A DNA stretch of 50,608 bases from Brevinematales bacterium (GTDB taxonomy: Bacteria > Spirochaetota > Brevinematia > Brevinematales > Thermospiraceae). A program made the translations under genes and the position numbers. Below are positions 5,494-48,360 of this stretch, piece by piece. The notes beneath the pieces are model-generated. The model was not told the DNA's origin. It made no database searches and was given only the letters and a program-made list of their open reading frames with translations. The DNA is taken from contig JAOADA010000010.1 in NCBI GenBank assembly GCA_026417555.1, positions 1 through 50,608 on the forward strand, in the 5' to 3' direction. Position 1 is the first letter of the stretch. Each line of letters opens with the position of its first letter.

Positions 5494-7341
5494 ATGTGTG
5501 GTATTGTTGGTTATATTGGAACACGAGATGCAAAGGAGATCCTTCTTGATGGTTTAAGCCGGTTAGAGTATCGAGGATATGATTCTGCAGGGGTAGCCTT
5601 GATGGAACAGAATGGTGCCCTTGCTATAGAAAAGCAGGTAGGCAAAATAGTAAATCTTCGCAATGCGGTGTTTCGCCGTTTTCATAACCAGAGTTTTGCG
5701 CTTGGGATTGGTCATACACGGTGGGCTACCCATGGAGGAGTGACTCGAGAGAACGCTCATCCCCATGTGAGTGTTTCAGGAAGGATTGCCCTTGTTCACA
5801 ATGGGATTATAGAAAACTATATGAGTCTCAAACAGTATCTTCTCCAGCATGGCTATACCTTTACTTCAGAGACAGATACCGAGGTTTTGGTTCATCTCAT
5901 CGAGGATTTTTACAAGCGAGAGGGAAATCGCAATCTCCAATCGGCAGTAATGGAGGCCCTGAAGGTAGTTGAAGGGACGTATGGAATTGCAGTTATATGT
6001 TCGGATGAGCCATATAAGATTGTGGCAGCAAGAAATGGAAGTCCTCTTGTTATCGGGATAGGAGAAAACGAAATGTTTGTGGCTTCCGATGTCAACGCCC
6101 TTCTTCCCTATACGAGAAATGTGATTTATCTTGAAGATAAGGAATTGGTCGTTCTCAAAAGTCAAAACTATAAAGCCTATGATCTTGACTATCAACGAAT
6201 TGACAAAGAGATATTTCACGTCGAATGGGATCTAAGTGCTATTGAACTAGGAAGTTTTGAGACCTATATGGAAAAGGAAATTTTCGAACAACCAGAAGCT
6301 CTCTTAAATGCACTTCGTGGGCGTGTGCACGAAGAGAATGGTATGGTCAAGTTCGGGGGACTTAATATGACAGATGATGAGCTTCGAGATATTCATCGGA
6401 TTGTGATTACAGCATGTGGGACAAGCTGGCATGCAGCCCTTATTGGGAAATACCTCATAGAGCGTTTTGGTGAGGTTCCTGTTGAGGTAGATTATGCCTC
6501 TGAGTTTCGGTATCGCAATCCTATCCTCAAGAAAAATGACCTTGTCCTTGTGATCAGTCAATCAGGAGAGACCGCAGATACCCTTGAGGCTCTCAGAGAG
6601 GCCAAGAGAAAAGGAGTAAAGGTATTAGGCATAACGAATGTTGTGGGAAGTACGATTGCGAGAGAAAGTGATGGGGGGATTTATCTTCATGCAGGTCCTG
6701 AGATTGGTGTGGCTTCAACCAAAGCCTTTACAAACCAGGTGGTGAGTTTGATTCTTTTTGCGATTTATCTCGGTCGTATTAAAAACATGAGCCTTTATGA
6801 AGGACAACGGCTTTTGAAAGAGCTCCTCACTATTCCTGAAAAAATGAAACAGATCCTTTCCCAAAAACCTGTGATACAAGAGATGGCAAAAAAATATAGT
6901 GAGGCAAGGAATTTTCTCTACCTTGGCAGGGGGTTTAATTATCCTGTAGCACTCGAGGGGGCTTTGAAACTCAAAGAGATTTCGTATATCCATGCTGAGG
7001 GCTACCCCGCCGCAGAGATGAAACACGGGCCGATTGCTCTTATTGATGAATTTATGCCTGTGGTGTTTATTGCTCCACGAGATGCTCTCTATGAAAAAAT
7101 TGTAAGTAATATTCATGAAGTCAAGGCGCGTCATGGAAAAGTGATCGCTGTCCTGACAGAAAAGGATGAGCATGTGCTTCCCTATGTGGATGAGGTGCTC
7201 TATGTGCCGCCAACCATTGAGGAATTCTCTCCCCTGTTGACAGTGATCCCCCTTCAGTTGTTAGCCTATGAGATTGCAAGGCTCAGGGGATTAGATGTGG
7301 ACAAGCCACGCAATCTTGCCAAATCCGTTACGGTGGAGTAA
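5494..7341 (+). CDS. glmS: Glutamine-fructose-6-phosphate aminotransferase (isomerizing)
   Basis: GlmS makes glucosamine-6-phosphate from fructose-6-phosphate and glutamine, the entry to peptidoglycan and other amino sugars. The N-terminal Ntn glutaminase domain starts MCGIVGYIG with the nucleophile C2; two SIS sugar-isomerase domains follow, with ITACGTSWHA and SQSGETADTLEAL, and the protein ends in the family signature LAKSVTVE. The 615-residue length is standard. AAGGAGG (5481-5487) serves an ATG only 11 bases after ruvC, which leaves no room for a glmS ribozyme. Confidence 0.98.
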   Translation: MCGIVGYIGTRDAKEILLDGLSRLEYRGYDSAGVALMEQNGALAIEKQVGKIVNLRNAVFRRFHNQSFALGIGHTRWATHGGVTRENAHPHVSVSGRIALVHNGIIENYMSLKQYLLQHGYTFTSETDTEVLVHLIEDFYKREGNRNLQSAVMEALKVVEGTYGIAVICSDEPYKIVAARNGSPLVIGIGENEMFVASDVNALLPYTRNVIYLEDKELVVLKSQNYKAYDLDYQRIDKEIFHVEWDLSAIELGSFETYMEKEIFEQPEALLNALRGRVHEENGMVKFGGLNMTDDELRDIHRIVITACGTSWHAALIGKYLIERFGEVPVEVDYASEFRYRNPILKKNDLVLVISQSGETADTLEALREAKRKGVKVLGITNVVGSTIARESDGGIYLHAGPEIGVASTKAFTNQVVSLILFAIYLGRIKNMSLYEGQRLLKELLTIPEKMKQILSQKPVIQEMAKKYSEARNFLYLGRGFNYPVALEGALKLKEISYIHAEGYPAAEMKHGPIALIDEFMPVVFIAPRDALYEKIVSNIHEVKARHGKVIAVLTEKDEHVLPYVDEVLYVPPTIEEFSPLLTVIPLQLLAYEIARLRGLDVDKPRNLAKSVTVE

Positions 7342-7342
7342 C

Positions 7343-8053
7343 ATGTCTCTTTGGAAAACCCAATGTTTTGTGTGTGGGCGAGTGCTGGGACACCATGATG
7401 GCAAGCTGGTGTGTGATGAGGAACTCACAAAGGTGAAGGGGGTGGCGTCCTGGGAGAAGCGTTGTACGCATTGTGATCAAAGGCTACAACTTTCTTCCCA
7501 AGAAGGGTTGTGTTATGATTGTTTCTGGCGATTTTCTTTGGGGGAGGTGGCTCTTGACAAAAGTTTTGCGCTTTTTTACTATGAAGGGGTGGTGAAATAT
7601 CTCTATCAGCAATTTAAGTTTGAGGGGAAGAAAACAGCCCTGGATGATCTCTGCACCCTCACTGAAAACCGAAAATCCGAATGGGTTTCACGGCTTCCTG
7701 AGGTGGAGGTGATTATACCGCTTCCTTCTTCCTGGATGACAAACTGGAAGAGGGGGTTTTCTCCTGTGAGCATGTTCTGGAGGAGGTTTTTTCCCCAATT
7801 GCAGGAGGATATTCTTGCGAGAAAAGGCGGAAGAACTCCCCAAAAAGTGCTTGATAGGGATGCCCGGCGACAGTATATCCAGCAGCAGTTTTGGGTTCGT
7901 TACCCAGAGAAAATAAGGGGAAAGAGGGTTCTTGTAGTTGATGACATCTATACCACCGGAAGTACTCTTGAAGAGGTAGCCAGGATAATGAAACACTATG
8001 GTGCTAGAGAGGTTTTTGCCCTTGTGATATGTCGAGATGGGTTTGCCTTGTGA
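7343..8053 (+). CDS. comF: ComF-family phosphoribosyltransferase-like protein
   Basis: The 236-residue product has the ComF layout: an N-terminal zinc-ribbon with several cysteine pairs (CFVCGR, CTHCDQ, CYDC) and a C-terminal type I phosphoribosyltransferase domain with the PRPP loop VLVVDDIYTTGST. ComF proteins are needed for DNA uptake in naturally competent bacteria, but their biochemical role is unsettled. The frame is open to 7295; ATG 7343 is chosen because GGTGGAG precedes it and it sits just after the glmS stop. It is the last gene of the hisG chain. Confidence 0.88.
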   Translation: MSLWKTQCFVCGRVLGHHDGKLVCDEELTKVKGVASWEKRCTHCDQRLQLSSQEGLCYDCFWRFSLGEVALDKSFALFYYEGVVKYLYQQFKFEGKKTALDDLCTLTENRKSEWVSRLPEVEVIIPLPSSWMTNWKRGFSPVSMFWRRFFPQLQEDILARKGGRTPQKVLDRDARRQYIQQQFWVRYPEKIRGKRVLVVDDIYTTGSTLEEVARIMKHYGAREVFALVICRDGFAL

Positions 8054-8090
8054 TGAGAGCGGGGAAATTGCGGGTTTTTCCTGGAAAAAG

Positions 8091-8118
8091 TAAGGCAAGC
8101 CTCAAGAAATGCCGATAT
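8091..8118 (+). promoter_or_regulatory. Candidate sigma-28 (FliA/SigD) flagellar promoter
   Basis: The 8-mer GCCGATAT at 8111-8118 matches the -10 consensus of sigma-D/sigma-28 promoters exactly. TAAG at 8091-8094 lies 16 bases upstream, close to the TAAA -35 of that class. It precedes the FlcA-like gene by about 40 bases and differs from the sigma-70-type promoters elsewhere in the window. Confidence 0.6.
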
Positions 8119-8160
8119 ATACAAAAAAGGTGTACCTTGAAGGGTAGGTAAGAAGAAGCC

Positions 8161-11100
8161 ATGGGTAAATTTGACAGTATCGAAAAGTTTTTGGGCAAAG
8201 AAGAGCATTTTTCTCCGCAACAGATAGAGGCTGGTCTCGATACCCTTGATGATATTCCTTCCACGCTTTCCGAAGTACATCCTGAGGCCATGGCGAATGT
8301 GGAAAGGCTCCTTCAATCGGAAGGGGCAGCGGGTTTGGGAGAGGGAGTTTCTCGTAAGGAGGAATCTGGGAGAGGAGATAGTTCTTTGGGGATGGGTGCC
8401 TCTATTTCCCTCTCCGAAGAACTTTTGAAAGAACTCTCTGCTCTTGATGGTCCTCCTCCCTCACTGGAAGAATTAGAAACACGCTTTAGTTCTCTTCGGG
8501 ATATTGCGAGTACTATCGAAGAAGAACCTTCTCCAGAAGAGAGTGTTTCTCCGTTTGAGGAAGAGATAGAAGAAAAAGAACCCTTCTCTCCAAGAGAGGA
8601 GCTGAAGCTTTCTCTCCCAGAGGGGGAGGAAGATCAGAGTTTGGCTGATCTTTTGGGGCAAATGAAAGTAGAGCCCGAAAGTACTCCTTCCTCACAGGGA
8701 GGAATAGAGGACCTCTTTTCCTCGTTGGGGATTTCTGATCAGGTGACAGAAGCGCCAGAGGTAACTCTTCCCCTGCCTGAAGAAGAGAAAAGAAAACCAT
8801 CGCTTTCATCCCTTGAGGAGGCTTTTTCAGAGGATACCTCCTTTGGTCTGGAACCTTCTTCGGCAGAACTTGAGATGCCATCATTGGAGGGTTTTGAAGG
8901 GGGAGAGGAAACTCTTTCCCCAGAACCTGCCGCAGAACCCTATACCTTTCCATCATTTGACGAAACACCCCTTGGGCCATCTTCTGAAGAGATTGCCCTT
9001 GAAGGCTTTGGAGAACCAGAACCATTCTCTTCAGAGATGGATCAAACTCTTCCACCAAGAGAGGGTGGAGGAGAGTGGGGTGAATCTGGGGTTTTATTAC
9101 CAGAAGAAGAGGTTTCAGAGCCAGAGGCTGCTGTTTTTGAACAGACGTCTTCTTCTCGTGAGCCAAAGGCATGGCAGGCACCTTCTTTTGATTTTGAGTC
9201 TGCAGAAATTTCCTCTCCAGGGCAGGTTTCTGAAAAATCCATGGGAGAAAGTTCCTCCCAAGAGCTTCTCCTTGATCCAGAGAAGGCAGTAAAAATTCGA
9301 GAAAGAATTAACCGTATCCGCAAACCTGAGGTACGTCAGAGAATTCGCGAAGCCATTGTAAGAGCTAGCCTTTCCGAGGAACTTCTCAAGGAGCTTATTC
9401 TCAAACTTCTTCTCAATGAGCCAGACACCTCTTTGGAAGATTTTGATAGACGATATTTGCAGAATATACGGGTGGAACCCAGAACCCCACCGTCGTTTGC
9501 CACACCTACAAGACGGGTTATCTATACCGAAGAGGCTGTTAAGGCAGAGCAACTCAACAAACAATTGGGAAAGGTAGGGGGAATTAGTCTTCTTCTTTTG
9601 CTTATTTCGGTGAGTATTTCAGCTTTGATGTGGGTGGGGGTGATTCAGCCTTGGCTTGCTGCTCGTGAGTATGAGAAAGGCCTTGCCGCTATTGAGAAAA
9701 AAGACTATGTCTATGCTGAAAAGAAGTTTCAGAGAGGAAAGGAGATTGGGGGATTTAATATCAAGTGGCACAACATCTTTGCGAAAAAATATACTGAGAT
9801 GGGGCAGTGGGAATTGGCTCGGGAGAAATACGAGGCAGCTCTTCAGCGTAAACCTCTTGATCGAACCACCATTATGAACTATGCCGAATTTAACAAGCAA
9901 CTCTATCCACCACGATATGAAGAAGCTATAGCCCTTTATACACGGTTGTACAAACGAACTCCCCGTGATTTTACGGTGGTGGATGCTTTGGGACAGACGT
10001 ATGTGGAATGGGCTGAGCGTACTTCTGATACGGTGGACCGTTTTGAGAAATTCAAAAAAGCAAACGATCTCTATGAAACCTACCTGATGAAAAAGAGCAA
10101 GGATATAGGAGCGCATTTTCGTCTTCTTGATATTGCTGTGCGTATTACCAACGAGACACTCATCGATGGACGCTACCAGATCATCGAAAAACTTAACAAG
10201 AGAGCGATTAACTTTCCTATTCTGACACGTCTTGCAAGTTACTATATTGACAAACGTCGTCTCTCAGAAGCACGAAAGGTTCTAGAGAAACTCGTTCCCC
10301 TCATCAAGATCAAGATCCGGGAGAGTGATGGGGCATATGTTCTTGATGAGTCTATGGCCAAATTCTCCAATCAAAAGCCTGTCTATGATGAAACCCTCTA
10401 CCAGTACGGGAGGCTTCAGACGATCAATATGGATTTTGTCCGTGCCATTTGGGCTCTTTCGAATGCAGTAGGGCTCAACCCATCGAATGCCAAGGCTTAT
10501 AACCTGATGGGGGAGATCTACTACACCACCGATGAAAGCCCCCAAGCGAAACGTCTTGCCATCTCTCTCTTCGAAATAGCCCAGCGGATATCCCCAACGT
10601 ATTATAAACCATATGTCAATCTTGGACATCTGTATTTTTATAACGATCTTGCCTTTAAGGACGAAGAGGCAGCGCTTTTCCGTTCGTTGGGGTATTATCA
10701 GGTGGCGTACCAACTCTATCAGATGGGACAAGTGGATAAACTCTCCCCTGATCCAAAACTTTTTTATAATCTCTCATGGCTTTACTACAAGTATGGGAAT
10801 TATGAAGAAGCCCTCAAGGTCCTCACAGAGATCTATACCACTGACCCCCTCAATCCTTACTATTCCTATGCAATTGGAAACGTCTACCAAAAAATGGGGA
10901 TAGGAGACCTAGCAGAGGTCAATTATCTCAAAGCGATTGATTATTTCAAAGATATCGCTCGAAGGATCAAGTATATCAATCCAGATTCTATAAGACACCG
11001 AGAGGTGTTTACACAGCTTGCGAGAGCCTATAATAATCTTGGGGTAGTGTATTTTACAGCAGCTAGGCAAAATCCGAAAATGGCTCAGGAGTATGAAGCC

Positions 11101-11304
11101 AAGGCACTTTTGTATTTTTATGAAGCAAAAAATATGGCCAACAAAGTAGGACTGCTCTATCCAGAGGCGGAGTATAATATCAAGGTGGTACTCAATAAGG
11201 GTATTCGAGGGAGGATGGCACGCCTTGATGATACCCTCGTGAAACGTACCTCGCTTCAAAGAATTTTAGAGGAACTGAAAAACGGCATGATAGATACCCT
11301 CTGA
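8161..11304 (+). CDS. Membrane-anchored TPR protein, candidate periplasmic flagellar collar protein FlcA
   Basis: This 1047-residue protein has three parts. Residues 1 to about 370 are acidic and rich in E, S and P with no visible fold. A conserved-looking helical block follows (about 375-435, with IREAIVRASLSEELLKELI). One membrane segment at about 473-497 (ISLLLLLISVSISALMWVGV) leads into a C-terminal half of TPR repeats, for example YEKGLAAIEKKDYVYAEKKF, YNLSWLYYKYGNYEEALKVL and AYNNLGVVYF. This architecture resembles spirochaete FlcA (BB0326 in Borrelia), which builds the collar around periplasmic flagellar motors. The flagellar-type promoter upstream supports the idea. A different TPR scaffold is possible; only homology search would settle it. 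Confidence 0.65.
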   Translation: MGKFDSIEKFLGKEEHFSPQQIEAGLDTLDDIPSTLSEVHPEAMANVERLLQSEGAAGLGEGVSRKEESGRGDSSLGMGASISLSEELLKELSALDGPPPSLEELETRFSSLRDIASTIEEEPSPEESVSPFEEEIEEKEPFSPREELKLSLPEGEEDQSLADLLGQMKVEPESTPSSQGGIEDLFSSLGISDQVTEAPEVTLPLPEEEKRKPSLSSLEEAFSEDTSFGLEPSSAELEMPSLEGFEGGEETLSPEPAAEPYTFPSFDETPLGPSSEEIALEGFGEPEPFSSEMDQTLPPREGGGEWGESGVLLPEEEVSEPEAAVFEQTSSSREPKAWQAPSFDFESAEISSPGQVSEKSMGESSSQELLLDPEKAVKIRERINRIRKPEVRQRIREAIVRASLSEELLKELILKLLLNEPDTSLEDFDRRYLQNIRVEPRTPPSFATPTRRVIYTEEAVKAEQLNKQLGKVGGISLLLLLISVSISALMWVGVIQPWLAAREYEKGLAAIEKKDYVYAEKKFQRGKEIGGFNIKWHNIFAKKYTEMGQWELAREKYEAALQRKPLDRTTIMNYAEFNKQLYPPRYEEAIALYTRLYKRTPRDFTVVDALGQTYVEWAERTSDTVDRFEKFKKANDLYETYLMKKSKDIGAHFRLLDIAVRITNETLIDGRYQIIEKLNKRAINFPILTRLASYYIDKRRLSEARKVLEKLVPLIKIKIRESDGAYVLDESMAKFSNQKPVYDETLYQYGRLQTINMDFVRAIWALSNAVGLNPSNAKAYNLMGEIYYTTDESPQAKRLAISLFEIAQRISPTYYKPYVNLGHLYFYNDLAFKDEEAALFRSLGYYQVAYQLYQMGQVDKLSPDPKLFYNLSWLYYKYGNYEEALKVLTEIYTTDPLNPYYSYAIGNVYQKMGIGDLAEVNYLKAIDYFKDIARRIKYINPDSIRHREVFTQLARAYNNLGVVYFTAARQNPKMAQEYEAKALLYFYEAKNMANKVGLLYPEAEYNIKVVLNKGIRGRMARLDDTLVKRTSLQRILEELKNGMIDTL

Positions 11305-11382: not shown

Positions 11383-11644
11383 GAAGAAAAAAGTGTTTGT
11401 CCAAAAGGCAGGATCTCTTTTCTAAGAAACAAAAAATTTCCATATAAAATCTCAAAGGCGGGGAGATACCGTTTTTCGGTAGGGTAGGGAGTGTCGTATT
11501 TTCAGTATTTTTCAAGAGTATGAGGTGTGTGTCATTCATAGGGGATCCCCTGTGAACATGGTGTGGGAGGATGATATTCAGAGAGACTTCTTTTCTCCTA
11601 ATACAATTCATATACCATAAGATGAGGAAACACAAGGAGTGAGT
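11383..11644 (+). promoter_or_regulatory. Long 5' leader of rho
   Basis: About 260 bases separate the predicted transcript start from the rho ATG. They contain two small hairpins: TACCG/CGGTA around a T5 loop near 11468-11482, and the palindrome AGGGGATCCCCT near 11540. No ORF with a ribosome site was seen. Rho genes are autoregulated through their leaders in some bacteria; a similar role here is inference. Confidence 0.35.
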
Positions 11645-13180
11645 ATGCCAAGAAAAAAAATCGTGTTAAAAGTCAATGCTGAAGACAATGTTTCCCAACA
11701 GACGTCAGAGATGTTTGTTGAGGAGGCGAAAGATTCTCAAACCCTAGAGGAAGGCGGAGGTCAAGACCAAGGGTCGGCTGTTTCTGAGGGACAAAAACCA
11801 AGTTATAAGCATCTTCTGTTTGCCAAATATGTTCCGTCGAATAATCTTGAGGATGTGCTCAAGCAGATTTTTACGGAGGATAGGTCTATTATCTTTCTCA
11901 ATAAACTGAAGCAACTCTCCATCACAGAACTTGTCAAGGTTGCGGAATACATGGAAATTGAAAACTATGAGGATATGCATACGCAAGAATTGATTTATCA
12001 GATTCTTCGTAAGCATGCGGATAAAAATGGCATTATTTATGGTGGGGGAACACTTCAGATCATTGAAAAAGAGCGAGACAATACTTTTGGTTTTCTTCGT
12101 TCACCGAGGTATTCCTATTATGCGAGTTCAGATGATATTTATGTCTCTGGGCATCAGCTTCATAATTTCCGTTTACGCAATGGAGATACTATTGAAGGCC
12201 ATATTCGTCCTCCCAAGAAACCGGAGGAAGAGAAGTTCTTTGCATTGATGCGGATTGAGAAGGTAAATGATCTCTCCCCGGAGGAAGCCAAGCGTCGTCC
12301 TCTCTTTGATAATCTCACTCCGCTTTTCCCCAATGAGCGCTTGCGGCTTGAAACGACACCAAATGAGATTGCTATGCGGATCATGGATCTTTTTACCCCT
12401 ATTGGGAAGGGGCAAAGAGGGCTTATTGTCTCTCCTCCAAAAGCAGGAAAAACCTCCCTTCTTCAGAAAATTGCCAACAGTATCACACAAAATCACCCAG
12501 AGGTAACGCTCATCATCTTTCTTGTGGACGAGCGTCCTGAAGAGGTGACAGAGATGCAGCGTTCGGTGAAAGCAGAGGTTATCAGTTCTACTTTTGATGA
12601 GCCACCCCAAAAACATATTCAGGTGGCTAACATGGTGTTGGAAAAAGCCAAACGGTTGGTAGAATCTGGGCATGATGTGGTCATTTTGTTGGATTCTATT
12701 ACTCGTCTTGCGAGAGCATATAACCAGGTAGAACCAGCAAGTGGGAAGATCCTCTCTGGGGGTATTGATGCCAATACCCTTTACAAACCGAAAAAGTTTT
12801 TTGGGGCAGCAAGAAATATCGAGGAAGGGGGGAGTCTCACTATTCTTGCTACAGCGCTTATTGATACTGGAAGCAAGATGGATGAGGTGATTTATGAGGA
12901 GTTTAAGGGTACGGGAAATATGGAGATTCATCTTGATAGAAATCTAGCGAATGTGCGCATCTTTCCTGCCATTGATCTCAAACTCTCTGGGACACGTCGG
13001 GAGGAACTTCTTTTGGATCCTATAACCCTTGAGAGGGTACACATGCTTCGCCGGGCTTTTGCAGGTATGTCAAACGAGGATGTGATAGAAAAGCTTTCAG
13101 CAGCCTTGCGAAAAGCAACCACCAATGAGGAGTTTATCCAGAATCTTCAAGTGTACGCCAATCTGAATGGTAAAAGTTGA
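11645..13180 (+). CDS. rho: Transcription termination factor Rho
   Basis: Rho is the hexameric RNA-dependent ATPase that ends transcription. The 511-residue protein has an N-terminal lysine/acidic extension of about 55 residues and then the helical Rho-N region ([16 protein letters not shown]). The RNA-binding cold-shock domain follows ([20 protein letters not shown]). The ATPase core has Walker [11 protein letters not shown] and Walker [17 protein letters not shown]. The extension makes it longer than E. coli Rho (419). AAGGAG at 11634-11639 fits ATG 11645 better than the GTG at 11639, which overlaps the ribosome site. Confidence 0.97.
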
Positions 13181-36156: not shown

Positions 36157-39100
36157 ATGGGTACTTTATTCAGTTTTCTCTTTCCGACGTTGGTGTCGGT
36201 TTTTTTGATATTCTATTTTCGAAAAATTGACAAAAAAAATGTTCAATTGCAGACACTAAAAAATTTTGTTCAACATTCTCTTCAGGAGATTCAGCGTCTT
36301 TTTGATGCCAAGCAAAAAGAACTCTATGATAAGACAATTAACCTTGATGTGTCTCTTCAAAAGTTGGACAAGGCCACGCAATTTATTAACCAGAAATTGG
36401 GTGAATTCAAGGATTTCATGGAAAAAACCAAACATCTTGAAAAAAGCCTTGAGATTCAACTCAAGGCGGCTCAAGGGTATGAGAAGGATTTGGCCTCTAT
36501 GGAGGCGCGGATGGCCCAACTTGTTGCTCTCGAGCGAGAGATGGAGGAGATGAAACAGGAGTTGGCCGAAGCAAAAAAATTCACCGCTACCCTGAGAAGT
36601 GATATTGATCAATCTCGTGTGTGGGCTCAGGACAATGTGAAAGAGATTATGAGAAACACGGAAGCAAGTATAGAGAATTTTCGCCGTCAGATTCAGGAGA
36701 AGATCCAGTCTTTTCAACTGGAAAAAACATTTCAATCCATCCAGAATGATATCCAACAGAGAACTGCCCAACTTCAACAACTTGTGAGTCAGATGGAGCA
36801 AACTCTTCGTGAACAGGAAGCGGCGAGCCAAAAAGAGGCCGAGAAAATTCTTGTTCAGAACAGGGCTGCTTTTGCAAAGCAAATGGAGGTTTTTCGCCAG
36901 GGGGCGGAGGCACAGCTGCTTGAGAAGGCAAGGACTCTTGAGGCTCAGTTCTTAGAGGGAATAAAGAAACTTGAACAGCAGTTTAATGCCTCTGTGAAGA
37001 TTATGAACCAACGACTCGCTGAGAATGATACCATACTCAAAGAGAACAAGAATGCCATTGGAAAAGAGTTTCAAGATCTTCGTCAATCCATGATGGGAGA
37101 GATGCAACACCTTAGTCAGATGATAGAATCCCAGAAAGCTACACTTAAACAGATGACAGAAGAGTACCAGAAAGCGCTTGAATCCAAGACGTCACAGGTG
37201 GACGAGTATCTAGAAGCCTTTAGTGAGCGCTTAACCCAGCAGTATGAAGAGGCTTTGGAAAAGGGCAAGGAAGAGTTGATTTCTCTTTCTCAAGAGATGC
37301 AAAGAATGAAAGATCAGATCTCGCATATTGATCAACAACTTGAAGGAGAGTTATCCATTTCTCAGGAGAAGTGGAAGAAAGCATTTGAAGAGATAGAAGA
37401 AGAAATGGAGAGAAAGATTGCTTCTCTCAGAGAAGAGAATGATCATACTATGAAGGAAACAGCCAAGGAGACAAAACTTCTTTGGGAAAAATCCACGGTA
37501 GAGTTACAAAACCGTTTGCAAGATGTGAAAACTATGCTTCAAAGAGAAATGCAGCATTTTTCTCAGGCTATTCAAGATCAAAAACGGGTGCTTGAGACCA
37601 TGACAGAAGAGTACCAGAAAGCGCTTGAATCCAAGACGTCACAGGTGGACGAGTATCTAGAAGCCTTTAGTGAGCGCTTAACCCAGCAGTATGAAGAGGC
37701 TTTGGAAAAGGGCAAGGAAGAGTTGATTTCCCTCCATAATACGGTAAATGAAATGCAGGCCATGATAGAAAAAACAAGCAAAGATGTTATGGAAGAGTTG
37801 TCTGACAATAAAGATGAGTGGTTAACGAAACTTCAACAGACTGCGGAAGAATTGCGGGCAAAACTCTCTACGACTCGCCATGATGTGGAAAAGGCTATTG
37901 AGCATGTGGCAGGAGAATGGCAAGGCATATGGAAAAAATCCTCGCAAGATTTTTCCGGCAAACTTGAGGAGTTGCACCGTCAACTTGAACATACTCGCCA
38001 ACGACTTGAGAGTTTCACCGCTTCGAGTGAGCAGAAGATTCAACAAACAGCAGAGAATCTTCTTGCCAGTCTCATGTCCAAGATAGAAGAAAAAGAGAAA
38101 GAAATGATCTCTGTGACAGAGGCTTCCTCTGGCAAGGTGAGTCATTATCTTCGTACCCTTGAAGAGAATGTGAAGGGGTATCAACAACAGATTCAGCAGG
38201 TGATGGATACAACAAACAAGGCGCTACGAGAGGATATTGAGGGAATGCAAAACCGAGTAGCTTCTCTTACCTCACAGAGTAACCAGATTGAGAATCTTCT
38301 TCGAGAGATTCTCAATAAACGTACCCGGGAGATTGATAGCTATCTTGACAAGGTTCGTCAGACGTATCTTGACGATTACCAGGAGCTTCTTGACAAAAGT
38401 AAGACAGAGATTATTGAACTTGAAGATACCATCCGTGAATTCAAGCAAGAGTTGTCATCCCAACAAAAGGTTATGGCCTCTCAGTTGAAAGCAGCTTTTG
38501 AAGAGGAAGAAAAGCAATTCCAGCAGGCTATGGGAAGGATTCAGGAGTCGCTTGACGCTTTGAAAAAGAAGGCAGATCAGGTGGCTGGAGAGGTAGACAA
38601 AGATGTGGCAGGGAAACTCCAGGGATTTCAGAGAGAGCTTGAAGCTACACTAAAGTCCTATCTTGAAAAAGCTTCTCAAGACTTTTTAAAGCGGCGAGAT
38701 GAATACATGGTGGCGTTTGAAAATCTTGATAAACGGTTGTCGGAACAGAGTTCTATCTTTGCGGATATGGAGAAACAACTCCGTATTCAACAAAGTCGAG
38801 TAGGAGAATTGCCCCAGCAAGTAGAACAACAAGTAAAAACACTCCTTGGACAGCTTTCGGAAGAGGTTCAAAAAGCTGTTGAGGCTTCTCGTACTACTCT
38901 GGAAGAAAAAATCCGTACCTATTTTGCCTCGGTGGAGAAAGACATGAACCAATATACAAAACGTGCCGAGGATCTGAAAAATCTCCTCCTTTCCCTTGAG
39001 AATCAGGCGGTTCAGCAGTACCAGAAGGATATGGCTGAAATAGAGAGTTCCCTTACCCGTAAAATGAGTGTCCTTTCTGGCAATATAGAAACCCTTTTGC

Positions 39101-40152
39101 AAAAGACGAAAGAAGAGGTGGAAGCGACAGTTTCTCTTGCTAAAAATAGTGTCGCCAGATTCTCTGAAGAGCTGAAAGGTATTCGAGAAGACTACAAAGA
39201 AGGGATTCAAAACGAATACAAGGATATCATAAAGAAAATCAAAGAGATAGAGGCTCGTTATGATGCCTTTATGAAAAAGACGCAACTTTTAGAGAGGGCA
39301 GAAGTAGTGGCGGAGAAATCTGAAGAAACCCTCAATACCATTCGGGAGAGTTTCCAGGAATTAGAGGAAAAAAGGCGATCGCTTAACGATGCTTTGCGGA
39401 CACTTGAAGGAGTGCAGAAGGAACGGCGTGAGTTAGATGATATACTCAACAATCTCCTTCTCCACAAAAAAGAATCCCTCCAAATGAAAGAAGTTGTAGA
39501 TCGAGCCATGGAGAAGGCAAAAGAAACCCAGGCCCTTCTAGCGTTTGCCGAACAGCAAAACAAGAAGGCCGATGAGATGAAACGGACACTCGAGGAAGCC
39601 ATGAAACTCTATGGTGATCTCCAGGCCAAATTTGCCGATCTGGAAAAGAAACGGGATATTGTTGTTAAGATCCTCAGTGAACTTGAAGAGACGAAGGAGT
39701 CCTTCGTGACAGTACAGGCAAAACTGAACGATGCAGACCAAAGGATCAGTCTTTTGAACAAACTCTCGAAAAAGCTTGAAGAGGATCTCAAGAATTTCCA
39801 GGGTCAGATTATGCAAGTCTTGGGGGATCAAGACAAAATCTTTGCTGCGGCAGATAAGATTGATAACCTTGAGAACATCCTTATTCAGGTAGAAGAAGAA
39901 GGGAAACGTCTTCAAAAAATGCGATCCTGGGTCGCGGAGCTTCAAAACCAGATTGAACGTATCCGAGCTTCTCAAGAAGAGGTTGTGCGTGGTTCTCGAA
40001 AAGACATGACTTCCAAACCACAAAGTGATCAGGATACTGTCAAGGCTATTCTCCGTTTACGGAAAGAAGGGTGGAGTGTGGAAGAGATTGCCTCTACATT
40101 GAAAGTTTCGGTGAGTTATGTGGAGCTTGTCCTTGAAAGATACGAAAAATAA
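36157..40152 (+). CDS. Giant membrane-anchored coiled-coil protein (SpiroCoCo type)
   Basis: The 1331-residue protein starts with one membrane span (LFSFLFPTLVSVFLIFYF, about 4-21). Almost uninterrupted heptad-like coiled coil rich in E, K, Q and L follows to about residue 1280. It ends in a small helix-turn-helix-like segment (AILRLRKEGWSVEEIASTLKVSVSYVELVL). This layout matches the SpiroCoCo family known from spirochaetes, whose function is not established; a filament or scaffold under the membrane is plausible. It has a consensus promoter and a strong AAGGAGG site, which suggests abundant expression. An exact 131-bp repeat lies inside (see the repeat entries). serS follows 14 bases later. 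Confidence 0.85.
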   Translation: MGTLFSFLFPTLVSVFLIFYFRKIDKKNVQLQTLKNFVQHSLQEIQRLFDAKQKELYDKTINLDVSLQKLDKATQFINQKLGEFKDFMEKTKHLEKSLEIQLKAAQGYEKDLASMEARMAQLVALEREMEEMKQELAEAKKFTATLRSDIDQSRVWAQDNVKEIMRNTEASIENFRRQIQEKIQSFQLEKTFQSIQNDIQQRTAQLQQLVSQMEQTLREQEAASQKEAEKILVQNRAAFAKQMEVFRQGAEAQLLEKARTLEAQFLEGIKKLEQQFNASVKIMNQRLAENDTILKENKNAIGKEFQDLRQSMMGEMQHLSQMIESQKATLKQMTEEYQKALESKTSQVDEYLEAFSERLTQQYEEALEKGKEELISLSQEMQRMKDQISHIDQQLEGELSISQEKWKKAFEEIEEEMERKIASLREENDHTMKETAKETKLLWEKSTVELQNRLQDVKTMLQREMQHFSQAIQDQKRVLETMTEEYQKALESKTSQVDEYLEAFSERLTQQYEEALEKGKEELISLHNTVNEMQAMIEKTSKDVMEELSDNKDEWLTKLQQTAEELRAKLSTTRHDVEKAIEHVAGEWQGIWKKSSQDFSGKLEELHRQLEHTRQRLESFTASSEQKIQQTAENLLASLMSKIEEKEKEMISVTEASSGKVSHYLRTLEENVKGYQQQIQQVMDTTNKALREDIEGMQNRVASLTSQSNQIENLLREILNKRTREIDSYLDKVRQTYLDDYQELLDKSKTEIIELEDTIREFKQELSSQQKVMASQLKAAFEEEEKQFQQAMGRIQESLDALKKKADQVAGEVDKDVAGKLQGFQRELEATLKSYLEKASQDFLKRRDEYMVAFENLDKRLSEQSSIFADMEKQLRIQQSRVGELPQQVEQQVKTLLGQLSEEVQKAVEASRTTLEEKIRTYFASVEKDMNQYTKRAEDLKNLLLSLENQAVQQYQKDMAEIESSLTRKMSVLSGNIETLLQKTKEEVEATVSLAKNSVARFSEELKGIREDYKEGIQNEYKDIIKKIKEIEARYDAFMKKTQLLERAEVVAEKSEETLNTIRESFQELEEKRRSLNDALRTLEGVQKERRELDDILNNLLLHKKESLQMKEVVDRAMEKAKETQALLAFAEQQNKKADEMKRTLEEAMKLYGDLQAKFADLEKKRDIVVKILSELEETKESFVTVQAKLNDADQRISLLNKLSKKLEEDLKNFQGQIMQVLGDQDKIFAAADKIDNLENILIQVEEEGKRLQKMRSWVAELQNQIERIRASQEEVVRGSRKDMTSKPQSDQDTVKAILRLRKEGWSVEEIASTLKVSVSYVELVLERYEK
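37153..37283 (+). repeat. 131-bp exact direct repeat, copy 1
   Basis: Identical base for base, as read by eye, to 37600-37730; the offset of 447 bases is 149 whole codons, so the repeat is in frame. It encodes the segment from MTEEYQKALESKTSQ to EKGKEELIS. Diverged similarity continues upstream of both copies (MGEMQHLSQMIESQK versus QREMQHFSQAIQDQK). Confidence 0.93.
37600..37730 (+). repeat. 131-bp exact direct repeat, copy 2
   Basis: Second copy of the in-frame repeat in the coiled-coil gene. The copies share synonymous positions too, so the identity is not just protein-level selection. The flanks diverge at once (TTTCTCTTTCT after copy 1, TTTCCCTCCAT after copy 2). Confidence 0.93.
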
Positions 40153-46494: not shown

Positions 46495-48360
46495 ATGTGG
46501 CTTGAGAAAATTTCTTCTCCAGAGGATTTGAGAGATCTCTCTTTGCCTGAACTTTATGATCTTGCTCAAGAGATTCGGGATTTTCTTATTGAATCGGTTT
46601 CGAGAACAGGGGGGCATTTGGCCTCGAATTTGGGAGTGGTGGAACTCACCATTGCTTTGCATAGGGTGTTTCGTTTTCCACAAGATACTCTTATCTGGGA
46701 TGTGGGACATCAATCGTATGTGCATAAGATCTTGACAGGGAGACGAGAGCGTTTTTCTCATCTTCGTCAGAAGGGAGGTCTCAAGGGTTTTCCGGATCCC
46801 AAAGAGAGTGTTTATGATGTCGTGCATACGGGACATAGCTCTACTTCTCTCTCCATTGCGGCGGGTATAGCCCGGGCAAAGCGTCTTCAGGGGGACACCT
46901 CTGAAACGGTTGTGGTGATTGGTGATGGGGCGTTTACTGCTGGGCTTGTGTACGAAGCCCTGAATCAAATTGCCTATGAGTCTCTTCCGGTGATTATTCT
47001 ACTCAATGATAATGGGATGTCAATCTCAGAAAATGTAGGAGGAATTGCCTCGTATTTTGAGAAACTTTTTCAGTCGAGTGCATATTTTCGGGCAAAAAAG
47101 CTTCTCGAGGATGTGAAACGTCGTTGGCGTTGGACGGGCTTTTTTGTTGGGCTTTTGTATCATACCAAAGAGTGGATCAAACGTCAGGTGTGGAAACTTT
47201 TGGGGAGAAAACGGAATTTCTTTGAAGATCTCAATATCTGTTATTATGGTCCTCTTGATGGTCACAATCTTAAAACTCTTCTTAAAACTCTTGAGGGTGT
47301 TCGTGGGCTTGAGAAGCCTATTCTTGTTCATGTGCGTACTATCAAAGGCAAGGACCATCAACCCTCAGAGGAAAATCCTGAACGTTACCATGGGGTGAGT
47401 GCTCCAAAGGTCTGTGCTCCTGGCGAGATAGTTACCGAGGGAAGAAGTTTCTCAGATATTTTTGGGGATACTATGGTGAGTCTGGCCGGGTGTGAACCGA
47501 GGCTTTTTGCTATTACGGCAGCCATGGAGAGTGGGACAGGACTCACACAGTTTGCTTCTCTGTACCCTGAGCGGTTTGCTGATGTGGGAATCGCGGAGCA
47601 ACATGCGGTGACGTTTGCTTTAGGTCTTGCGCTTCGAGGTTTTGTCCCGGTGGTGGCTATTTATTCTACTTTTCTGCAGAGAGGGTTTGACCAGTTGGTG
47701 CATGATATAGGCATTTCTGGGGCCCATGTGGTGTTTGCGTTGGATAGGGCAGGGCTTGTTCCTGGAGATGGGGAAACTCATCAGGGGATTTTTGATATAG
47801 CCTATCTCTCTATGATTCCTGGTATTATGGTGTTGGCGCCGGCGACAGGACGGGAGCTGCAGATGATGCTTGAATATGCGATCAAGGAAGTGAAGGGACC
47901 TGTGGCTATTCGCTACCCAAAAGCCATAGCCCATGAATGGGAGGGGTATGATCCAACGAGGTATCCTCTGGACGGTAGACCTGTTCTCTGTCGGGAAGGG
48001 GGAGATTCCATTCTTGTGGCGGTTGGTCCTTTATTGGGACTTGCCCTTGAGGTGGCCACAATCCTTGAAAAAGAACAGAAAGCACTGGCGGTATTAAACC
48101 TCCGCTATATAAAGCCGATACATACTATAACGTATGATATCCTTTTGAGGTACAAAAGGGTGTATGTCCTTGAAGAGGGGATTTTACGCGGTGGTGTTGG
48201 TGAACACCTCAAGGCAATGATTGGGCAGCAAGTAGACATCTACGCGGTGAGGGATCATTTCCCTGAGGTGGGGACGCGAGAAGAACTTCTCGAGGAGGAA
48301 GGTTTGACAAAAGAAAAAATTCTCACTATAATAAGACAGGGAGAACTCAAAAAATTGTGA
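46495..48360 (+). CDS. dxs: 1-deoxy-D-xylulose-5-phosphate synthase
   Basis: Dxs condenses pyruvate and glyceraldehyde-3-phosphate with thiamine diphosphate, the first step of the MEP isoprenoid pathway. The 621-residue protein shows GGHLASNLGVVELTIALH, DVGHQSYVHKILTGR, the cofactor motif GDGAFTAGLVYEALN to NDN, the catalytic glutamate region ADVGIAEQHAVTFA and DRAGLVPGDGETHQGIFD. The length is normal. It begins 6 bases after the FlgH-like stop and its own stop overlaps the GTG of the cyclase gene. Confidence 0.97.
   Translation: MWLEKISSPEDLRDLSLPELYDLAQEIRDFLIESVSRTGGHLASNLGVVELTIALHRVFRFPQDTLIWDVGHQSYVHKILTGRRERFSHLRQKGGLKGFPDPKESVYDVVHTGHSSTSLSIAAGIARAKRLQGDTSETVVVIGDGAFTAGLVYEALNQIAYESLPVIILLNDNGMSISENVGGIASYFEKLFQSSAYFRAKKLLEDVKRRWRWTGFFVGLLYHTKEWIKRQVWKLLGRKRNFFEDLNICYYGPLDGHNLKTLLKTLEGVRGLEKPILVHVRTIKGKDHQPSEENPERYHGVSAPKVCAPGEIVTEGRSFSDIFGDTMVSLAGCEPRLFAITAAMESGTGLTQFASLYPERFADVGIAEQHAVTFALGLALRGFVPVVAIYSTFLQRGFDQLVHDIGISGAHVVFALDRAGLVPGDGETHQGIFDIAYLSMIPGIMVLAPATGRELQMMLEYAIKEVKGPVAIRYPKAIAHEWEGYDPTRYPLDGRPVLCREGGDSILVAVGPLLGLALEVATILEKEQKALAVLNLRYIKPIHTITYDILLRYKRVYVLEEGILRGGVGEHLKAMIGQQVDIYAVRDHFPEVGTREELLEEEGLTKEKILTIIRQGELKKL

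Follow-up and report, generated by a model that had tools for sequence, protein, structure and literature searches.

A predicted sigma-28 promoter upstream of the flagellar collar gene flcA in Brevinematales

Introduction

In Borrelia burgdorferi, the flagellar collar protein FlcA (BB0326) is described as a turbine at the edge of the motor collar, in contact with both FliL and the stator, whose occupancy it increases (PMC8609358, PMC11750108). The assembly of the collar is listed among the unanswered questions and its hierarchy is left to later work (PMC11750108). Borrelia reportedly lacks sigma-28 and transcribes its flagellar genes with sigma-70 (PMC11607428). Here, we analyzed contig JAOADA010000010.1 of a Brevinematales bacterium (assembly GCA_026417555.1), the whole of which (50,608 bases) is referred to as the window. 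The open reading frame at positions 8161-11304 encodes an FlcA protein and is preceded at 8091-8118 by a sigma-28-type element. We consider it highly probable that flcA of Brevinematales is a late gene, which would be controlled by FliA and FlgM via this predicted promoter. Both the FlcA protein and sigma-28 promoters are of kinds already known, and what is new, modestly so, is the predicted placement of flcA under sigma-28; no paper on a collar gene under sigma-28 was found in the literature searched, most subscription journals lying outside it. If true, the prediction gives the collar a testable place in the assembly order of the motor, and different collar timing is predicted for lineages with and without FliA.

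Sigma-28 promoters have the consensus TAAA at -35 and [N]CCGATA at -10, separated by 15-16 nucleotides (nt). The -10 consensus ends in T for sigma-D of Bacillus subtilis and in A in Escherichia coli, and the spacing norm of sigma-28 in E. coli is one nt shorter than 16. In enteric bacteria, the stator genes motAB are class III (late) genes under FliA and FlgM. Both motAB and flcA encode motor parts for stator function under FliA/FlgM, in the case of flcA by prediction; the enteric products are different proteins to which no homology is claimed, FlcA being a stator scaffold of spirochaetes. Among spirochaetes, PflaB2 of Treponema denticola is a sigma-28 promoter with a mapped start, for which a -10 of CCGATAA and a -35 of TTAA are given (PMC9481697), and four sigma-28 targets are named for Leptospira, flaA1, flaB1, flaB4 and fliS (PMC5243855, PMC12655853). 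The flcA site resembles PflaB2 in its -10 core, CCGATA, and in having a -35 rich in T-A-A, and this likeness supports the reading of flcA-type sites as sigma-28 promoters; FliA and FlgM are both encoded in the genome of the window. The two differ in that PflaB2 drives a filament gene from a mapped start, whereas flcA encodes a collar component and its start is placed by prediction.

Results

The gene downstream of the predicted promoter encodes FlcA

The product of 8161-11304 (+ strand, 1047 amino acids, aa) was scanned against curated protein models. NCBIfam model NF047371 (FlcA_CTERM) was matched with 398.2 bits at a cut-off of 300, over aa 377-1035 (9289-11265), a region that contains TPR repeats. 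Five further NCBIfam matches all stayed under their cut-offs, the Pfam matches were to TPR families, and the second-best place for NF047371 in the whole genome reached only 57.7 bits. An FlcA-like architecture had been proposed in the initial annotation, which had asked in advance for a profile search, and this search bears it out, as the best curated match is FlcA and no other TPR family. Judged by the curated model, which settles the identity, the gene is flcA.

The N-terminal part of the protein is acidic (22% D+E). It is followed by a single hydrophobic segment (aa 468-499), where one membrane helix is predicted by hydropathy at aa 477-495 (9589-9645), separating the acidic N-terminus from the TPR domain; the TPR matches, found between aa 544 and 928, come after the helix. 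This layout of N-terminus, helix and TPR domain matches that of the two FlcA proteins that were checked, those of genomes G085 and G068 (Borrelia-like and Treponema-like, respectively, both being inferred labels), whose single hydrophobic segments lie at aa 344-377 and 465-496 under the same window rule. BB0326 of B. burgdorferi belongs to the same family by the curated C-terminal model, and the Borrelia-like protein shares acidic N-terminus, one helix and TPR C-terminus at 20% identity. Identity to the FlcA protein of the window was 73% in G001, 39% in G004, 27% in G008, 22% in G035 and 19% in G068. In a protein search of named genomes, a protein of Brevinematales bacterium isolate Ch60 showed 93% identity over the C-terminal 671 aa.

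The predicted promoter elements are conserved within the genus

Upstream of flcA, TAAG-N16-GCCGATAT spans 8091-8118 on the + strand and ends 42 nt before the open reading frame. The -35 element TAAG (8091-8094) is part of a conserved block, GTAAGGCAA (8090-8098), and the -10 element GCCGATAT (8111-8118) is directly followed by a second conserved stretch, ATACAAAAAA (8119-8128), within which the transcript most likely starts, near 8124-8127. A purine-rich stretch at 8141-8157 is the probable ribosome-binding region. The -10 element ends in T, like the B. subtilis sigma-D form and unlike that of E. coli, and the 16-nt spacing is the same as at the flgM, flaB and mcp sites of this genome. The sigma-28 -10 element with TAAG 16 bases upstream had been annotated at this place, and on re-reading it was exact. 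It had also been taken for the only such promoter in an intergenic region of the window, which is right for TAAN-N14-16-GCCGATA: the one further match in the window, at 48095, lies inside the dxs reading frame (46495-48360).

The site was then compared among three genomes of the genus, the genome of the window (G000), G001 and G002. In all three, flcA is preceded by TAAGGCAA-N12-GCCGATA[A/T]ATACAAAAAA with a diverged spacer; the -35 block, GCCGATA and the stretch 3' of it are invariant. Both elements, their 16-nt spacing and the segment 3' of the -10 are the only stretches of the intergenic gap (8054-8160, 107 nt) that are kept in the genus. Within the promoter blocks 27 of 28 columns are invariant, compared to 24 of the 75 other gap-free columns (Fisher p ~1e-9, an optimistic value because the blocks were chosen after viewing the alignment). 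Conservation, unlike the motif alone, exceeds chance, and it is on conservation that the promoter claim rests, because simple pattern counts failed to separate real sites from chance.

FliA, FlgM and related sites before other motility genes

The absence of a fliA/sigD gene had been named beforehand as a finding that would refute the proposed promoter. One FliA/WhiG-family sigma factor above cut-off was found in the genome of the window (TIGR02479, 282.8 bits, cut-off 189.6). It passes the FliA subfamily model NF005413 as well (246.5, cut-off 201), and fliL, fliM and fliY lie within 5 kb of its gene. FlgM is present once per genome in all three genomes of the genus, and in each of them flgM is preceded by the near-consensus site TAAA-N16-GCCGATAA (G000:C27:90464-90490, - strand; counterparts in G001 and G002, loci L233-L235). 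In the genome of the window, the ATG of flgM follows 19 nt after GCCGATA. The alternative that this TAAAGTG...GCCGATA site is coding sequence was rejected, as the FlgM search places the site just before flgM.

In the genome of the window and in G002, TCAA-N16-CCCGATAA was found before one flaB gene and TCAA-N16-GTCGATA before one mcp gene, the G002 mcp gene being matched by eye. The flcA, flgM, flaB and mcp sites suggest T[A/C]A[A/G]-N16-[G/C][C/T]CGATA as a working sigma-28 consensus for the genus.

A looser two-part motif precedes 5 of the 160 genes in the stretches of the window's genome that were read. The set is not a random one, since flagellar and chemotaxis loci guided the choice of stretches. 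The five genes are flcA, fliL, fliY, an iron-hydrogenase/MCP fusion and one gene of 255 aa. The fliL site (TTAG-N15-GCCGATAG, 5' end 17839) and the fliY site (TTAA-N15-ACCGATAG, 5' end 16151, overlapping the end of fliM) are both on the - strand of locus L059 (G000:C28). As fliL, fliM and fliY were sought but not found in the stretches of G001 and G002 that were read, the evidence for these two sites comes from a single genome. What makes the fliL site interesting is that FliL is described as binding FlcA in Borrelia (PMC11750108). Stator-ring and motor-switch parts, namely fliL and fliY, may also have sigma-28 promoters.

The -10 core is shared across the order

FlcA was searched for in 120 genomes and the upstream regions of 60 were read, comprising 11 from the order, 46 from other FliA-positive genomes and 3 from family f36, a Borrelia-like family. 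FliA was found above cut-off in 111 of the 120 genomes, among them 13/13 order genomes. All 13 order genomes also have an FlcA candidate, 5 of them above cut-off; the upstream counts exclude G005 and G010, whose contigs end inside or near flcA. Outside the order, G052 and G034 were excluded for contig ends, and six further relatives without FliA above cut-off lie outside the upstream set. In G006 the chosen start probably lies 42 nt too far upstream, although the site was found nonetheless; the start of G038 is misplaced inside the gene and was kept in the count of 46.

Within 150 nt upstream of flcA, CCGA[T/A]A is present in 11/11 order genomes (dinucleotide-shuffle expectation 0.89) and the two-part motif in 9 of the 11 (expectation 0.13). 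On the opposite strand, neither was found in any of the 11 regions. When the regions are split by the FlcA cut-off, the core is found in 5 and the two-part motif in 4 of the five regions above it, and in 6 and 5, respectively, of the six under it. CCGATA itself is present in 9 order genomes, and 6-mers with at least three G+C reach at most 6 in 500 shuffles. The two-part motif was written after the sequences had been seen, a bias which the shuffles and the other-gene controls limit but do not remove. These sequences give the arrangement good support within the order, while its occurrence in other lineages is unproven.

The genomes of f36 have strong FlcA matches, and FliA above cut-off was found in 0/3 of them. 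The two-part motif was found in 0/3 of their flcA upstream regions, unlike in Brevinematales, and the lack of FliA in this family agrees with the published absence of sigma-28 in Borrelia (PMC11607428).

The membership of flcA in the motility regulon, as put forward in the initial annotation, is thus upheld in so far as a FliA-type sigma factor is present and the promoter sequence has been kept together with flcA across the genus and the order; the dependence of flcA on FliA is a prediction.

In several genomes of families f12, f23 and f34 (e.g. loci L189, L190 and L198), the flcA-like gene is preceded by TTGATTTTT and, some 20 nt further on, by a word resembling CTGATTATGTC. This string, which was read by eye, may represent another promoter type outside the order.

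Evidence against sigma-28 control and alternative explanations

Several observations weigh against a sigma-28 promoter as the determinant of flcA expression. The -35 element TAAG has one mismatch to TAAA. The top curated model of the sigma factor is named WhiG, a sister of FliA (391.6 bits, cut-off 343). Among the flagellin-domain genes of the window's genome, one of four has a clear site and one more a weak one (TAAA-N15-GTCGAAAC), and among the MCP-domain genes one of six has an N16 site and another, which encodes the hydrogenase/MCP fusion, a looser site. Among the 11 order proteins with readable upstream regions, only 5 exceed the FlcA cut-off, the rest scoring 247-273 bits, so that the orthology of the latter leans on the shared comF neighbour.

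In genome-wide counts, TAAN-N14-16-GCCGATA has 8 matches in the genome of the window, compared to 14 for the reversed control. TVAR-N16-SYCGATA has 29, 38 and 47 matches in three genomes, compared to 18, 27 and 23 for its reversed control; the excess in the genome of the window (29 versus 18) is modest and the G002 count is inflated by a repeat. Of the enrichment expected from the initial annotation, a modest excess was thus obtained with the second pattern and none with the first. Flagellin upstream regions from 32 loci served as a positive control and gave a noisy result, perhaps owing to the tandem arrangement of many flagellin genes.

For the FliA-positive regions outside the order, the count of the two-part motif was 6/46 on each of the two strands, with 5/9 on each in family f22. 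Of the 46 regions, 18 belong to proteins above the FlcA cut-off (5 with the motif, 6 with it on the opposite strand) and 28 to proteins under it (1 and 0, respectively), some of which may be non-FlcA proteins. A sigma-28 promoter before every spirochaete flcA was rejected on these grounds, the motif being equally frequent on the opposite strand.

Sites shared by the genus also occur before genes of other kinds. TAAA-N16-GCCGATA with a largely conserved spacer is present at G000:C11:380558 (locus L011), G001:C1:2048802 and G002:C44:4298, and the first of these precedes an LptC-like gene without a known link to motility. Further genus-shared sites lie before genes for a HEAT-repeat protein and for a protein of 437 aa that matches no Pfam family. 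This leaves two readings, a regulon that extends beyond motility or a chance origin of some of these sites.

Three other explanations were considered. Expression of flcA mainly by main-sigma read-through from the housekeeping genes ruvC, glmS and comF upstream, with the sigma-28 site as a minor booster, is unlikely, though it fares best among them. A comF-type phosphoribosyltransferase gene (7295-8053, + strand; Pfam Pribosyltran 42.3 bits; NCBIfam comF 84.7 bits, under the curated cut-off of 233.55) lies directly upstream of flcA, and in 11/11 order genomes flcA has such a gene in front of it in the same orientation. With one pattern applied to both sets, the comF-type PRPP motif was found within 500 nt upstream of flcA in all 11 order genomes and in 0/49 outside, and the comF-flcA gaps of the 11 order genomes measure 75 to 137 nt, depending on the starts chosen. 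No terminator-like site was found in the comF-flcA gap of the window, and therefore read-through from comF may also feed flcA. However, no other part of the gap is as conserved as the promoter blocks, and this fits a mere booster less well; the same type of element also stands before flgM, flaB and mcp.

It is quite improbable that the conserved element is instead a sigma-70-type promoter, with TATATA or TAAATA overlapping GCCGATATATA and a coincidental likeness to sigma-28 promoters. TATATA at 8116-8121 does overlap the site, and some other families have sigma-70-like sequence before flcA, such as TTGACA-N17-TATAAT in G082 (f14; read by eye). Yet no sigma-70-type site was found in a search of the comF-flcA gap, the hexamer becomes TAAATA in G001 with GCCGATA unchanged, and CCGATA is the most shared 6-mer with at least three G+C across the order. 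That the site is a chance string without promoter function can be all but dismissed: TAAN-N14-16-GCCGATA shows no genome-wide excess and the loose motif is found before other genes of the same genome, but both elements and their spacing are invariant across the genus with a free spacer, the -10 core is present in every order genome read, and three of the five motif-bearing genes are flcA, fliL and fliY.

Proposed mechanism of flcA expression

FliA/FlgM control of flcA through the conserved promoter builds on what was directly observed, the profile identity of flcA, the presence of FliA and FlgM, and the sequence and conservation of the site. With a conserved sigma-28 promoter sequence in front of it, flcA is therefore likely to be induced at the same time as flagellin and other late genes of motility. 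RNA polymerase carrying FliA would bind the site and start flcA transcription near the predicted position. FlgM, itself encoded behind the same type of site, would keep FliA from acting before completion of the hook-basal body, and the stator-holding part of the collar would therefore be made in the late wave, along with flagellin and chemoreceptors. By homology to BB0326, FlcA would be anchored in the inner membrane by its one helix, with the acidic tail in the cytoplasm and the TPR solenoid in the periplasm. It would form the outer turbine of the motor collar, touch FliL and MotB and keep the stators in place, again by homology. As a tentative extension, FliA/FlgM gating of the stator scaffold FlcA in addition to the filament, and perhaps also of FliL, could make stator recruitment a distinct step of motor assembly whose timing is set by transcription; Borrelia, without FliA, would then express the same protein constitutively.

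Gene neighbourhood and further sites

The window belongs to an assembly of 2.04 Mb in 33 contigs (98% complete). Among the 37 other window proteins scanned, none had a flagellar match above its curated cut-off (5 of the 37 had no match at all). In the single-contig genome G001, flcA (2.46 Mb), fliA (0.25 Mb), flgM (0.46 Mb) and one flagellin gene (1.55 Mb) are widely separated. The gene had been annotated as an orphan away from flagellar clusters, and so it is as far as the available contig reaches, which begins 8 kb upstream. The next gene 3' of flcA, rho (11639-13180, + strand; NCBIfam Rho 647 bits), encodes the transcription termination factor and lies outside the system.

The motif-bearing hydrogenase/MCP fusion gene (locus L064, G000:C11, 3339-5597, + strand) encodes a 753-aa protein that combines an iron-only hydrogenase with MCP signalling, and its loose upstream site, TCAA-N15-TCCGAAAA, adjoins a TATAAT. 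In G001 (L116) and G002 (L121), TAAA-N16-GCCGATA was found upstream of a gene for a DUF1577 protein, a domain reported to mark YcgR-like c-di-GMP proteins in spirochaetes (PMC11800159); in the genome of the window, this DUF1577 gene has only a weak, partial match, which was left uncounted. The gene for a PilZ-domain protein of the window's genome (L115) has a TGAA-N16-GCCGATAG site. The string TCAAGTTTTGTATCAGGGTAGTCGATA is present in five exact copies in G002 (C3, C8, C9, C16 and C56) with a variant in C32, and is probably part of a repeated element.

Near the left contig end, a 5S rRNA gene was identified at 106-213 of the window (Rfam); the open reading frame at 104-469 overlaps it and is probably spurious. 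A 1331-aa protein encoded at 36157-40152 has weak apolipoprotein-like (coiled-coil type) matches under the Pfam cut-off and a small helix-turn-helix-like match at its C-terminus.

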